A DNA stretch of 61,350 bases from Candidatus Ozemibacter sibiricus (GTDB lineage: Bacteria; Muiribacteriota; Ozemobacteria; Ozemobacterales; Ozemobacteraceae), in contig QOQW01000013.1 in the NCBI GenBank assembly GCA_003327425.1, positions 1 through 61,350 of the forward strand. Direction: 5' to 3'. The notes beneath the pieces are model-generated. The model did no database searches. It was not told where the DNA came from and worked only from the letters and a program-made list of their open reading frames with translations. Both the position numbers and the translations under genes were made by a program. Positions 15,237-20,295 of the stretch are shown here, piece by piece; the first letter of the stretch is position 1; each line of letters begins with the position of its first letter.

Positions 15237-15265
15237 TTGACTTGTACAAATATGGGCGGTATACT
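15237..15265 (+). promoter_or_regulatory. Strong sigma70-type promoter of the GNAT-luxE-luxC operon
   Basis: TTGACT, 17 nt, TATACT: near consensus. The spacer begins with the 8-bp palindrome TTGTACAA (15242-15249), a candidate operator. Transcription would start near 15272, about 36 nt before the first ATG. Confidence 0.75.
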
Positions 15266-15307
15266 GACGAGGCGGTCGAAGATGCGATTCCGCCGCCGAG
15301 AGGAAGC

Positions 15308-16495
15308 ATGCAACGCATAACCCTGGAGGACGGTCGCGAGGTCCACTGCCAGCCTGGGCAGGAGCAGGACATTCCTGGCATCATCCGCTTGTATGAGCGG
15401 GTCTACAAAGGTCGTTACACCCTGCGGGATGTCTCAGACCCCGCCTCGATGCGGAAGAAGCTGAACGATCCCAACTACTTCTGGGTGCTGGCCCACCTCG
15501 GCGAGGAGATCATCGGCTCGGTCATCTTCGCCATCGACCCGGTCAACAAAATCGGCAAAGTCTATGGCGCCGTCGTCCTCGAGGAATTCCGCGGGCAGGA
15601 CATCATGCGCACCATCGTCAAGCATGGCCTCGAACGTCTGACGAAACGCACGCGCACCTGCGATGTCATCTATGCCACCACCCGGACGGTCAGCGTCGCC
15701 CCCCAGGTGGTCCTCGAGCACCTCGACTTCCGGCCGATGGGCATTTTCCCGAATGTCCGCAAAGTCGAATCGTTCGAGACGCACGGCCTCGAGATCTACT
15801 TCCGCGAGGGCACCCTGGCCGCGCGGCGGCGCAGCCCGCAGCTGGTTCCCGAGGTGCGGGAGTTCTACAAGATCGTCCGGGATGTCCTGTCGCTGGAGGC
15901 CGAGACCCCCGTCGACCTGCCGTTGTCCGACCCGCGCCAGATGGGAGAGCCGCTCGAATTCCGGATCGAATCCGACGAGAACCGTCTGCGCAAGCGGTTC
16001 GACGACCTGCAAGACCGCGATCTGATGGACAAGGTCTTCTTCCCCTTCATGGAGCCCAACCTGCTGGTCACCACCCCCGACCAGACGGCCGAATTCTTCG
16101 TCCATTTCAACGAAGCCGATGGCAACGGCATGATCCTGGGCTACCGGATCGGTTCGGTCGACCTGCGGCGGGCGCTGATGTGGTTCAGCGAGGCGGCCGC
16201 CCGCTCGGGGATGCGCTACATCGAACTGCTGGTGAACGCCTTCCGGCCTGATCTGCAGCGGATCGCCGTCGATGCCCGCTTCCTGCCGACCGCCTATTTC
16301 CCGGCCATGCGCATGACGCCGGAAGGCCTGCGCGAGGACTACGCCGTCTTCTCGCGCTCCTTCGAAAGCCTCGATTTCATGAACATCCATTTGATCGACA
16401 CCAACCGGCGGTTCCTCGATGCCTTCATGAAATGCTGGTACGAGATGCTGGTGCGGTGCCAGCCCGATTTCGACGAGGTGTGGCGGATTGGCTGA
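15308..16495 (+). CDS. GNAT-type acyltransferase, two-part protein, first gene of lux-like operon
   Basis: 395 aa. Residues about 10-150 resemble a GNAT N-acyltransferase: an IIRLYERVYKG-type first helix, then beta strands with EEIIGSVIFA, then VVLEEFRGQDIMRTIVKHG, where the acyl-CoA pyrophosphate loop would lie. The second half (about 190-395) may be a further GNAT-like fold, but this is not certain. The start at 15308 has AGAGGA upstream; an earlier in-frame ATG (15242) lies inside the promoter. It overlaps the next gene by 8 bp, so it belongs with the acyl-activating and reducing enzymes. The acyl acceptor is unknown. Confidence 0.75.
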   Translation: MQRITLEDGREVHCQPGQEQDIPGIIRLYERVYKGRYTLRDVSDPASMRKKLNDPNYFWVLAHLGEEIIGSVIFAIDPVNKIGKVYGAVVLEEFRGQDIMRTIVKHGLERLTKRTRTCDVIYATTRTVSVAPQVVLEHLDFRPMGIFPNVRKVESFETHGLEIYFREGTLAARRRSPQLVPEVREFYKIVRDVLSLEAETPVDLPLSDPRQMGEPLEFRIESDENRLRKRFDDLQDRDLMDKVFFPFMEPNLLVTTPDQTAEFFVHFNEADGNGMILGYRIGSVDLRRALMWFSEAAARSGMRYIELLVNAFRPDLQRIAVDARFLPTAYFPAMRMTPEGLREDYAVFSRSFESLDFMNIHLIDTNRRFLDAFMKCWYEMLVRCQPDFDEVWRIG

Positions 16496-17615
16496 GCGCA
16501 ACGTCTTTCAGGCCTGTGGACGCTTGTTCGCCCTCGCCGACGCCTTCGATCACACGCCGGCCACCGCGCGGCTGTTCGATGAGGCCATGGCCGAGGCGCT
16601 GCGCTGGCACTGGGAGCGCTGCCCCGACTACCGGCGGTTCCTGGAACGGCATGGGGTCACGGCCGAGCGCCTGCCCGAGCGCCCCGAGGAGATTCCTCCC
16701 GTCTTCGTGACGATCTTCAAAGAGCACCGCCTGATCTCCATTCCCGAACACCAGATCGACATCGAGCTGACCTCGTCGGGCACCGGCGGGCAGCGCAGCG
16801 CCATCGTCCTCGATCGCCGCTCGCGCCGCCGCATTCTGCAGATCGTCGATCACATCTTCGGCTCGCTCGGCCTGATCGACCGCGAGGAGACGGCCAACTA
16901 CCTGTGCTTCACCTATGATCCCCGGGTGGCCCGGAACGTCGGCACCGCTTTTTCCGACAAGATCCTGACCGGGCTGACGAAACGGCGGCGGGTCTTCTAC
17001 GCCATCCGTTGGAATTCCGCCAAAGGGGAGTTCGAATTCGATCTGGCCGCCACCGTGGCGCAGGTGCGGCGGTTCGCCCGGCGCCCCGAGCCCCTGCGCA
17101 TCCTCGGGTTTCCCGCCCACCTGTGGCAGGTCTGCGACGCGCTCGAGCAGGCCGGAGAGCGCCTGGCCCTGGGCCCCCGGTCGTTCGTGATCACGGGCGG
17201 CGGCTGGAAGGTGCACAAAGACCGCGAAGTCACCAAGGAAGTGTTCCGGGAGCGGGTCTGCCGGGTGCTCGGCATGCCAGAAGCCAACCTGCGCGACACC
17301 TACGGCATGGTCGAGCACGGCATTCCGTATGTCGATTGCGAGCACGGGCGGCTGCACGTGCCCATCTATGCCCGGGTGCGGGCGGTCGACCCCGAGACGC
17401 TGGCGCCGCTGCCGGCCGGCAGCCGCGGGCTGCTCCATCTGATGACGCCGTATCTGTCGAGCTATCCGTCGATTTCTCTGCTGTCGACCGATCTGGCTGT
17501 GGTCGAATCCGGCTGCCCCTGCGGACGTCCGGGCGACACCCTGCGCATTCTGGGCCGGGCCGGGCTGGCCAAACACAAGGGCTGCGCCATCACCGCCCTG
17601 GAATTGCTGAAATGA
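16488..17615 (+). CDS. LuxE-like acyl-protein synthetase
   Basis: 375 aa, close to the length of LuxE (about 370-380). It belongs to the adenylate-forming acyl-protein synthetase family, which activates a fatty acid with ATP and passes the acyl group through the enzyme to LuxC. The phosphate-binding motif TSSGTGG is at 95-101, ITGGGWK at about 228, and the YGMVEHG motif at about 270. Cys366 (KGCA), nine residues from the end, is placed like the acyl-carrying Cys reported near the C-terminus of Vibrio harveyi LuxE (from memory). It begins with TTG, with GAGGTG 7 nt upstream, overlapping the GNAT gene. No luxAB genes are in the window. Confidence 0.85.
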   Translation: MAERNVFQACGRLFALADAFDHTPATARLFDEAMAEALRWHWERCPDYRRFLERHGVTAERLPERPEEIPPVFVTIFKEHRLISIPEHQIDIELTSSGTGGQRSAIVLDRRSRRRILQIVDHIFGSLGLIDREETANYLCFTYDPRVARNVGTAFSDKILTGLTKRRRVFYAIRWNSAKGEFEFDLAATVAQVRRFARRPEPLRILGFPAHLWQVCDALEQAGERLALGPRSFVITGGGWKVHKDREVTKEVFRERVCRVLGMPEANLRDTYGMVEHGIPYVDCEHGRLHVPIYARVRAVDPETLAPLPAGSRGLLHLMTPYLSSYPSISLLSTDLAVVESGCPCGRPGDTLRILGRAGLAKHKGCAITALELLK

Positions 17616-17713
17616 GGGCCCTGACGGCGATGCACGGCACCACGAAGCTGCGCGGAAGGGACGGCCGGGCCAGCCGGGGCGCGGCACCGGCGAGGAAAGC
17701 GAGGCCACGATGA
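17612..17713 (+). CDS. Possible 33-aa bridge ORF between luxE- and luxC-like genes
   Basis: Starts at an ATG overlapping the luxE-like stop (ATGA) and ends at a TGA overlapping the luxC-like start (ATGA), filling the 94-nt gap exactly. The product would be basic (about nine Arg/Lys) with no known domain. The SD is weak. It may be a small protein, a coupling device, or chance. Confidence 0.35.
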   Translation: MRALTAMHGTTKLRGRDGRASRGAAPARKARPR

Positions 17714-20295
17714 TCGGGTATACCCTGGCCTTCGGCCACAAAGTTCCCCCCACCCCACCGGTCGAAGACGGGCTGCAGAGCCTGCTCGCCGAGGCCCGAG
17801 CGGCCGCGCGGCGCGCCGCCGACACCCCCATCGAGAAGACCCTGGAAGTCCTCGATCGGGCCAGTCGCCGGTGGGCCGACCCCGCCGATCCCCTCCGGCG
17901 GAAGGCCCTGGAAGAGCTGCCCGACCGGATCGGGTTCAGCCGCGCCATGGTCGAGGAAGGGCTGGCGACGGTGGCGGCGATCTGTTCGCGCGCTTCGCTC
18001 GAACGTCGCCTGCTGGGCGAACTGGGCGGCAAGCACTTCCGTCAGACCTGGCAGGCCCGCCCCGGACTGGACCACGACGTGCTGGCCGTGCCGCGCGGCG
18101 TGGTGGTGCATCTGGCCGCGGGCAACGTCTTCGTCGGCGCGGTCGACAGCCTGGTGGCCGGCATCGTCACCGGCAATGCCAATCTGTTGAAGATGTCGAG
18201 GGTCGACCCGCTGTTCCCGATCCTGTTCCTGGAAAGCCTGCGCGAGTGCGATCCCGAGGGATACGTCTGGCCCAACCAGGCGGCCTTCCTCTGGCGAGGC
18301 GGCGACCTGGCGGTGGAAGGGCCGCTGTTGAGCGCCGACCTGACCGTGGTCTTCTGGGGCGGGCAGGAAGCCCTGGCCGCCGTGCGGTCGCGCCTCGGCC
18401 CGGCCACCCGGCTGATCGAGAACGGGCCCCGCTATTCGTTCGCGGCGGCCGAGGGCGAGTATCTGGAACAGGCGCTCGACGCCCCGCTGTTGCGGGGGCT
18501 GGCGCTCGACCTCTGCCGCTGGGATCAGCAGGCCTGCTCGTCGCCGCAGATGGTCTACGTGATCGGCGGCCGGCCGGGCCTGGTGCATACCCTGATGGAC
18601 CGCCTGGCCCCGGTGCTCGACGACCTCGAGCGCACGCTGCCCCTGGGGCGGCTGTCGTTCGACGAGAAGGTCGAGATCCGCCGGGTACGGGAGCTGGCGA
18701 TGATGGCCGAGGCCAAAGGCCAGGGCCGCCTGGTGGCGCCGGCCCCGTTCATCTACACCCTGATCGCCTCGAACGATCCTGCCTTCCGCATCTCCTGCCT
18801 GAACCGCACGCTGTTCTTCGCCCAGGTGCCCAGTCTCGAGGCCCTGCTCGAGCAGGCGGCGCCGGTGGCCTCGTATCTGCAGACGGTCGGCCTGGTCGTG
18901 GCGCCGACCCACCGGGCCGAATGGGAACGCCGCCTGCTGGAGATCGGCGTCAAGCGCCTGACGGAATGGGGCGGGATGAGCCAGGGCAGCGACGGAGCCC
19001 CGCATGAAGGCGCCTACCTGCTCGGGCAGCTGGTCAACTGGGTCAGCCGGGAACATCTGCCGGAAAAGCGGCTCACCAAGCTGCTGCGCGAGATCCGGGC
19101 CGCCCCCTACTACGCCCGCCTGCTCGCCGATCTTCCTGGCGAAACGCCGGATTTCACGGCCATTCCCCTGCTCGACCGGGCCACCTTCTATGCCCATTGC
19201 CCGCCGAAATCGCACGACATCCTGACCGGGCCGATGCGCGATGCGTATGTCTACACCTCGGGCGGCACGACCGGCGATCCCAAGGTCACCTTGTACTCGA
19301 ACCGCGAATATCGCACCGCGACCGACGTGCTGGCCTTCATCTACCGCACGGCCGGCCTCACCCCCGACGACGTGGTGGGCAACCTGTTCATCGCCGGCTT
19401 CCTGTGGACCAGCTTCAACGTGGCCGGCCGGGCGCTGGAGAACATCGGCTGCCTCAATCTGCCGATCGGCGGGGCCACCGAATTCGCCCAGACCATCAAG
19501 TATCTCGAGATGTTCGAAGCCACCGGCGTGGTGGGGCTGCCCTCGATCATCGTCAAGCTGGCCGAGGAGGTGCGGGCGCGGGGGTCGCCGCTGCGGATCC
19601 GCAAGATCTTGTACGGGGGCGAGCACATGCGGCCGCAGACGGCCGAGTTCCTGAAGCAGACGCTGGGGGCGGAATGGGTGCGCTCGGCCGGCTACGCCTG
19701 CGTCGATACTGGGCCGATCGGCTTCCAGTGCCCGCACCTGACGGGGGCGGTCCACCACGTGCTCGAGGACTACCAGTTCGTCGAGATCCTGCATCCGGTC
19801 GATCAGCGGCCCTGTTCGGTGGGCACGGTCGGCGAGATCGTGGCCACCAACCTCGATCGGGTACTGATGCCGGTGGTGCGCTACCGCACCGGCGATCTGG
19901 GCCGCTGGGTGAGCATGGCCGAGTGCCCCTGCGGCTTCCGGGGGCGCACGTTCGAGCTGCTGGGGCGGTGCGATGATCAACTGGTGATCGGCGGCATCAA
20001 CCTGCTGCCGCCCGATGTGGCGGCCGGCCTGGCGTTGCTGCCTGGGGTCAGCCCCAATTTCCAGGTGGTGGCCCGCACCCAGGATCGTCACGACCTGCTG
20101 GTGGTGCGCCTAGAGGCGGAACACCCCCTGCCCGACGCGACGGTCATCGAGGCGCTGAAGAAGGGAAGCTACAAGATCGCCGAGGCCTTGACCAAGCGCT
20201 GGCTGGTCATCGAGATCGAGTGGTTCAAGCCGGGCGGCATCCCCCGCAACCCGCGCACCGGGAAACTGAAGACGATCATCGAAGAGCGATCGTGA
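17710..20295 (+). CDS. LuxC-type acyl-CoA/acyl-protein reductase fused to a PaaK-like adenylating domain
   Basis: 861 aa, about twice the length of LuxC. Residues 1 to about 435 are LuxC-like (NADPH-dependent reduction of an activated acyl group to aldehyde). They include HLAAGNVFVGAVDS and WDQQACSSPQ, where Cys276 is the likely acyl-accepting residue (compare Cys286 of V. harveyi LuxC, from memory), and the IGVKRLTEWGGM closing segment. Residues about 445-861 form a second adenylate-forming domain related to phenylacetate-CoA ligase. It has TSGGTTGDPK at 516-525, YRTGDLGRW, and GRCDDQLVIGGINL at the hinge. The operon therefore has two separate acyl-activating modules for one reductase. The product could be a fatty aldehyde, alcohol or acylated compound (inference). 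Confidence 0.88.
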   Translation: MIGYTLAFGHKVPPTPPVEDGLQSLLAEARAAARRAADTPIEKTLEVLDRASRRWADPADPLRRKALEELPDRIGFSRAMVEEGLATVAAICSRASLERRLLGELGGKHFRQTWQARPGLDHDVLAVPRGVVVHLAAGNVFVGAVDSLVAGIVTGNANLLKMSRVDPLFPILFLESLRECDPEGYVWPNQAAFLWRGGDLAVEGPLLSADLTVVFWGGQEALAAVRSRLGPATRLIENGPRYSFAAAEGEYLEQALDAPLLRGLALDLCRWDQQACSSPQMVYVIGGRPGLVHTLMDRLAPVLDDLERTLPLGRLSFDEKVEIRRVRELAMMAEAKGQGRLVAPAPFIYTLIASNDPAFRISCLNRTLFFAQVPSLEALLEQAAPVASYLQTVGLVVAPTHRAEWERRLLEIGVKRLTEWGGMSQGSDGAPHEGAYLLGQLVNWVSREHLPEKRLTKLLREIRAAPYYARLLADLPGETPDFTAIPLLDRATFYAHCPPKSHDILTGPMRDAYVYTSGGTTGDPKVTLYSNREYRTATDVLAFIYRTAGLTPDDVVGNLFIAGFLWTSFNVAGRALENIGCLNLPIGGATEFAQTIKYLEMFEATGVVGLPSIIVKLAEEVRARGSPLRIRKILYGGEHMRPQTAEFLKQTLGAEWVRSAGYACVDTGPIGFQCPHLTGAVHHVLEDYQFVEILHPVDQRPCSVGTVGEIVATNLDRVLMPVVRYRTGDLGRWVSMAECPCGFRGRTFELLGRCDDQLVIGGINLLPPDVAAGLALLPGVSPNFQVVARTQDRHDLLVVRLEAEHPLPDATVIEALKKGSYKIAEALTKRWLVIEIEWFKPGGIPRNPRTGKLKTIIEERS

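Follow-up and report, generated by a model that had tools for sequence, protein, structure and literature searches.

The genome of Candidatus Ozemibacter sibiricus contains an operon that, on balance, probably encodes a luciferase-independent carboxylate reductase with two entrances for acid activation, a GNAT protein in the same pathway, and an undescribed small molecule as its product. An acid-reductase operon that works independently of luciferase had been proposed in an earlier note on this DNA, and the intact cysteines of LuxC and LuxE, the complete second ligase and the absence of luciferase agree with it. The three outcomes listed in that note as able to refute it were all checked, and each turned out in its favour. 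The window, the whole stretch of 61,350 nucleotides analysed here (contig QOQW01000013.1), comes from a genome of 5.68 Mb that is 98% complete. Its closest named relatives are Candidatus Riflebacteria, in which the LuxC-PaaK fusion is 78% identical. The operon is located at 15308-20295 and consists of a same-strand trio of genes for GNAT, LuxE and LuxC-PaaK, with a conserved promoter upstream:

15237..15265, + strand: sigma-70-type promoter, TTGACT-17 nt-TATACT; hexamers and spacing recur before the GNAT gene in relatives
ATG 15308 to stop 16495, + strand: tandem-GNAT protein, 395 aa; from Pfam, AlphaFold and conservation
TTG 16488 to stop 17615, + strand: LuxE acyl-protein synthetase, 375 aa; from Pfam and the alignment to LuxE of 7xc6
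17710..19053, + strand: LuxC domain (acyl-CoA/acyl-protein reductase), fusion residues 1-448; from Pfam and the alignment to 7xc6_A
19054..20295, + strand: PaaK-type adenylate-forming ligase domain, fusion residues 449-861; from Pfam and the matches to 4r1l and 2y27

The fusion is a single open reading frame of 861 amino acids (ATG 17710 to stop 20295). The TTG start of LuxE overlaps the stop of the GNAT gene by 8 nt, and the ATG of the fusion is placed 94 nt downstream of the LuxE stop. The genes had been described as overlapping or tightly linked; the first pair does overlap, and the second is linked only. The GNAT start codon at 15308 is preceded by AGAGGAAG, and the relatives start at the equivalent site. 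A TTG at 15242 was rejected as the start of this gene because it sits within the promoter. The operon is flanked by xerC/hslUV, named from their translations alone, on one side and by unrelated genes on the opposite strand on the other side. The promoter matches 10 of 12 hexamer positions and is the sole match in the region, against 0.7 expected by chance; taken alone it is weak. The identical -35/-10 pair, with a spacer of 17-18 nt, is located 41-51 nt upstream of the GNAT start in eight relatives from four genera, and a ninth relative has a near match (TTGATA/TATATT). Because the pair recurs at this place, the promoter at 15237-15265 is very likely genuine, which bears out the suggestion of one promoter ahead of the three genes.

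LuxE and the LuxC half of the fusion were identified by their Pfam domains (PF04443, E-value 5.7e-46, and PF05893, 1.4e-69, respectively), and both score far under the cut-offs of the corresponding NCBIfam equivalogs (122 vs 750 bits for LuxC and 141 vs 550 bits for LuxE). LuxC Cys276 (DQQACSS) aligns to the DQQACFS motif in LuxC of Photobacterium phosphoreum (7xc6_A), and LuxE Cys366 (HKGCAI) aligns to QKGCSL in LuxE of the same complex (7xc6_E). The acylation cysteines in P. phosphoreum, LuxC Cys286 and LuxE Cys364, are known by experiment (PMC8301110). In the family alignments, Cys276 is kept in 34 of the 35 fusions, and Cys366 is invariant among the fusion-associated LuxE proteins. A paralogous fusion at locus L066 lacks the LuxC cysteine. 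Both cysteines noted earlier in the window are thus conserved in the family and not peculiar to this genome. The A3 loop of LuxE reads TSSGTGGQ. LuxE lacks the C-terminal ANL domain, which is complete in the fused PaaK, and this suggests that LuxE should transfer its acyl group to protein cysteines, while a CoA thioester is possible for PaaK.

LuxC and LuxE are textbook enzymes of light organs. No member of the luciferase family was identified in the genome of the window, and a luciferase elsewhere in this genome was therefore rejected. Nor was any intact luciferase-family gene identified among the 40 genomes of the phylum, the 39 relatives contributing a single fragment of 93 codons at a contig end, whereas 10 of 14 control genomes gave a positive result. 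The operon contains no luxD. The description of the locus as luciferase-free thus extends to these 40 genomes, and no luxAB genes turned up that could tie it to light production.

The ligase half of the fusion contains the AMP-binding (PF00501, 1.1e-10) and AMP-binding_C_2 (PF14535, 1.1e-7) domains, and all its motifs are intact, namely the A3 loop YTSGGTTGDPK, YRTGDL with D729, CPCG, and the C-terminal catalytic Lys852 (RTGKLK). K852 and D729 are present in all 35 aligned fusions, which span three phyla; the A3 loop is also kept, as expected if LuxC is fused to a complete second adenylate-forming domain, as had been read from the window. To judge from its motifs, the fused PaaK is in principle equipped for both the adenylation of an acid and its conversion to a CoA thioester. 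With the phenylacetate-specific PaaK equivalog TIGR02155 it scores 111.5 bits, under the 646.3 bits required. Structure prediction of the fusion, which had been suggested as a check, gave an AlphaFold model with a pLDDT of 88 and a pTM of 0.64, in which the mutual placement of the halves is unreliable. The LuxC half matches LuxC of 7xc6 (TMt 0.78), and for the other half the matches are PaaK-type ligases (TMt 0.79). Among the latter, BT_0428 (4r1l), PaaK1 (2y27) and ClxA (9s3l) resemble the C-terminal half of the fusion in fold and motifs, but they are stand-alone proteins, whereas the PaaK domain of the operon is fused to LuxC.

The GNAT protein has a Pfam match to Acetyltransf_1 (9.9e-8), and its AlphaFold model (mean pLDDT 90, pTM 0.89) contains two GNAT folds per chain. 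The alignments used for structure prediction consisted of Riflebacteria sequences alone. The same arrangement is found in the tandem GNATs 3tt2 and 9emd (histidine acetyltransferase), the alignments to which cover most of the protein; however, the whole-chain superposition scores are low, and the P-loop is altered in the Riflebacteria proteins. GNAT enzymes hold the CoA pyrophosphate through a (R/Q)xxGx(G/A) loop. In the N-terminal domain, the loop that joins strand 82-90 to helix 99-114 reads R95-G-Q-D98-I-M100 and departs from the canonical RxxGxG/A. The P-loop glycine position is occupied by Asp in 17, Asn in two, Ala in one and Glu in one of 21 Riflebacteria proteins, and the canonical Gly with the following Ala is present only in three GNAT proteins of the Streptomyces group. 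The residues Y122, R126, E157, Y304 and E306, across both domains, are invariant, and simple decay is disfavoured because R126, E157, Y304 and E306 are among them. The Riflebacteria protein may bind CoA in another way or use an acyl donor other than CoA, and its atypical loop weakens the idea of a plain acyl-CoA transfer.

To learn how widely the fusion occurs with GNAT and LuxE as neighbours, a search that the earlier note had called for, we examined 40 Riflebacteria genomes. Of these, 26 contain the full-length fusion and three more have contig-end fragments of it, while profile matches to GNAT and LuxE were obtained in 27 and 35 genomes, respectively. Neighbour extraction gave the gene order GNAT-LuxE-fusion in most loci. 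The GNAT is present in 26 of the 29 fusion-positive genomes versus one of the 11 fusion-negative genomes (Fisher p 3e-6, a descriptive value that ignores the kinship between genomes); this co-occurrence, together with the synteny with LuxE and the fusion, supports the view that it is part of the system. In two of the three fusion-positive genomes without GNAT, a contig ends beside the operon, and G031, a genome that is 78% complete, has the fusion together with LuxE and lacks a GNAT. The sole fusion-negative genome with GNAT, G009, probably also carries the fusion, since its intact LuxE gene is located at a contig end that cuts the locus.

In the phylogeny of the fusion, the main-operon copies of the families f1, f3 and f8 form supported groups, and separate paralogous copies are present in G001, G010, G011 and G031. 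The tree follows the families, from which the operon looks like an old trait that has been passed on vertically within Riflebacteria. The pairwise distances of the four modules show correlations of 0.95-0.98, although common descent alone would predict a correlation. No general recurrent extra partner was identified among the scanned neighbours in the Riflebacteria loci. An MFS gene recurs at some loci (L054, L064, L072 and in Streptomyces), and genes for TPR proteins, an RND pump or TldD-like proteins are located beside the operon in single families each. A GenBank record titled Candidatus Methylomirabilis (DYKG01000009.1, L006) carries the operon of the Riflebacteria contig G006:C24 and is probably a mislabelled MAG.

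In the genus g10, the PaaK domain and the GNAT are gone, and so are the LuxC cysteine and the LuxE A3 loop. This joint loss supports the suggestion that the parts of the operon serve one chemistry. LuxE/LuxC pairs without PaaK and GNAT are located in g10 at L068:8816-11256, L069:8826-11309, L070:2383-4940 and L075:8084-8785, and the pairs in L068, L069 and L075 lie next to the genes that are found downstream of the operon in other genera. In these pairs, the QQAC of LuxC is replaced by QKSS or similar, and LuxE misses both the A3 loop and the C-terminal cysteine. The pairs are full-length unless cut by a contig end, with dN/dS of about 0.2-0.4, and apparently represent a selected pseudoenzyme pair. 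At L076:2323-5466 and L078:1266-3575, single open reading frames unite LuxE-like and LuxC-like parts that have lost their catalytic motifs. The one in L076 apparently adds a PaaK-like part, and its genome, G009, contains the intact LuxE and GNAT on a different contig.

Six records in the plasmid collection contain the full fusion, four from Streptomyces/Streptantibioticus and two from Salmonella, and the distribution outside Riflebacteria is to be read as a lower bound. The gene order in Streptomyces sp. NBC_00158, PaaK - MFS transporter - GNAT - LuxE - LuxC-PaaK, is repeated on two further megaplasmids, and the order on the Salmonella plasmids is LuxE - LuxC-PaaK - PaaK - GNAT. A paralogue cluster in Riflebacteria (L064) consists of PaaK, a second GNAT, LuxE, the fusion, MFS and GNAT. 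The recurrence of an MFS exporter hints that those hosts secrete a small molecule, and the product of the Streptomyces relatives is probably exported. The C-terminal part of the 496-aa protein encoded between PaaK and LuxE at L064:11278-12765 is similar to the Salmonella cassette GNAT (E 1.3e-7); the extra N-terminal part of this protein appears anti-sigma/HATPase-like by eye and has no Pfam hit. The Salmonella enterica cassette (L037:8560-14318) is mobile: it is carried by a conjugative plasmid of the IncF type, where its neighbours are recombinase and toxin-antitoxin genes. Only two full copies of it were found, which are near-identical, and there was no DNA match to this version in E. coli genomes. 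A phage-borne or viral origin of the operon was rejected, as the matches to viruses and phages were partial and unrelated.

Other relatives of these genes have different neighbours. A gene for an encapsulin-like shell protein (Linocin_M18, 2.2e-61; L072:11702-12535) adjoins a paralogous LuxE/LuxC-PaaK pair. On a plasmid of Streptomyces europaeiscabiei (L080:3010-11468), LuxE and LuxC follow genes for YcaO, MBL-fold and DUF692 (MNIO) proteins, a RiPP-like cluster by its gene content in which the lux-type reductase possibly acts on a peptide carboxylate. A LuxE-LuxC pair on a Chloroflexota plasmid (L081:8935-11336) is located by a gene for a RecD-like helicase, with a heliorhodopsin gene close by.

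In P. phosphoreum, the acid is activated as an LuxE-bound acyl-AMP, transferred to the LuxE cysteine and from there to the LuxC cysteine, and reduced with NADPH to the aldehyde (PMC8301110). By homology, LuxE of the operon would adenylate a carboxylic acid with ATP and hold the acyl group on Cys366, from which it would be passed to LuxC Cys276 and reduced there with NADPH to an aldehyde. More tentatively, the fused PaaK could load LuxC in cis or ready a second building block, and the GNAT might belong to this pathway as well, its target being a partner or product that bears an amine, to which it would join an acyl group before or after the reduction. Its altered CoA loop hints at an unusual acyl donor. 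The further PaaK and the MFS exporter that accompany GNAT, LuxE and LuxC-PaaK in Streptomyces count in favour of such a pathway. A bolder version, which we regard as possible but doubtful, is that an undescribed pathway ancestral to the phylum makes a new class of acylated, aldehyde-derived metabolites, with a GNAT that dispenses with canonical acyl-CoA and draws on the LuxE/PaaK side of the complex for the acyl group; plasmids of Streptomyces and Salmonella would then carry mobile relatives of this pathway.

The two ligases could also be accounted for if PaaK supplied acyl-CoA or acyl-AMP to the GNAT for an N-acyl compound, the carboxylate of which would be activated by LuxE and reduced by LuxC to an N-acyl amino aldehyde or a cyclising compound. 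The co-occurrence of GNAT and the PaaK domain, their joint absence in g10, and the several ligases found with a GNAT and an exporter in Streptomyces would fit such a division of labour. However, the P-loop of the Riflebacteria GNAT is atypical, and it is LuxC, not the GNAT, that carries the fused PaaK, which favours direct delivery to LuxC; the losses in g10 came as one set and do not single out a coupling of PaaK and GNAT. We consider this scheme rather improbable. Less probable still is a lipid or envelope route, in which the operon would supply a fatty aldehyde to ether lipids, to alkyl or acyl sugars or to the glycan of flagella; roles of this kind have been proposed for the luxC/luxE genes of flagellin islands and for the ElbD pathway reductase. 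Homologs of LuxC and LuxE classically take fatty acids, luxE and luxC are present in flagellin glycan islands, and inheritance across the phylum would suit a structural component, but no glycosyltransferase, ACP, FabG or flagellar genes are located by the operon in the window or recur in the scanned selection of the relatives' neighbours, and PaaK-type ligases usually prefer aromatic or short acids.

It is very unlikely that PaaK survives only as a relic for docking or regulation, with the catalysis left to LuxE and LuxC. One donor per LuxC is enough, LuxE alone suffices in the lux systems, and related LuxE/LuxC pairs without PaaK exist; a relic would nevertheless be expected to decay, and D729 and K852 are kept throughout the fusions, with the A3 loop kept as well. 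The source genomes are metagenome-assembled, which raises the question of an assembly or annotation artefact, but the same fused reading frame is full-length in independent assemblies of 26 genomes and in six plasmid records, four of the Streptomyces group and two of Salmonella, so that this explanation has a negligible probability and was ruled out. The preferred reading remains that of a carboxylate reductase with two acid-activating entrances. It would make lux-type light enzymes part of what is apparently an inherited character of an entire phylum that yielded no intact luciferase gene. Being small, self-contained and expressible, the operon opens a putative undescribed metabolite pathway of an uncultured phylum to direct testing, and a one-chain ligase-reductase from acid to aldehyde could serve as a compact biocatalyst.

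Among the known systems, the LuxC-LuxE complex of P. phosphoreum (7xc6) shares near-full-length domains, the acyl-transfer cysteines and the adenylation loop with the operon, although LuxC is only about 23% identical and the operon lacks luxA, luxB and luxD and contains the LuxC-PaaK fusion and the tandem GNAT. The flagellin glycosylation islands of Aeromonas and Enterobacteriaceae carry luciferase-free luxE and luxC genes together with an AMP-dependent ligase (PMC7874193, PMC4875605), but the ligase is unfused, and ACP, 3-oxoacyl-ACP reductase, glycosyltransferase and flagellar genes are located alongside. The presence of two acyl-activating modules for one reductase had been called unusual, which is too strong, since an AMP-dependent synthetase, luxE and luxC occur together in the Aeromonas islands (PMC7874193). 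In the biosynthesis of the small molecule grixazone, a carboxylic acid is reduced by GriC/GriD, an AMP-binding enzyme and an aldehyde-forming reductase (PMC10179220); these are two separate proteins, described with no mention of LuxE or GNAT, and are likened to the operon by description. The ElbD ether lipid route was rejected as a match, as only the concept of an acid-to-aldehyde step is common to both. No LuxC-PaaK fusion or GNAT-LuxE-fusion operon was found in the open-licence literature, which is weak evidence of novelty. Luciferase-free luxC/luxE with an extra ligase is thus already known, as is a ligase-reductase pair from grixazone, while the fusion of LuxC to PaaK, the regular occurrence of LuxE and a tandem GNAT beside it, and its conservation throughout a phylum are apparently undescribed.
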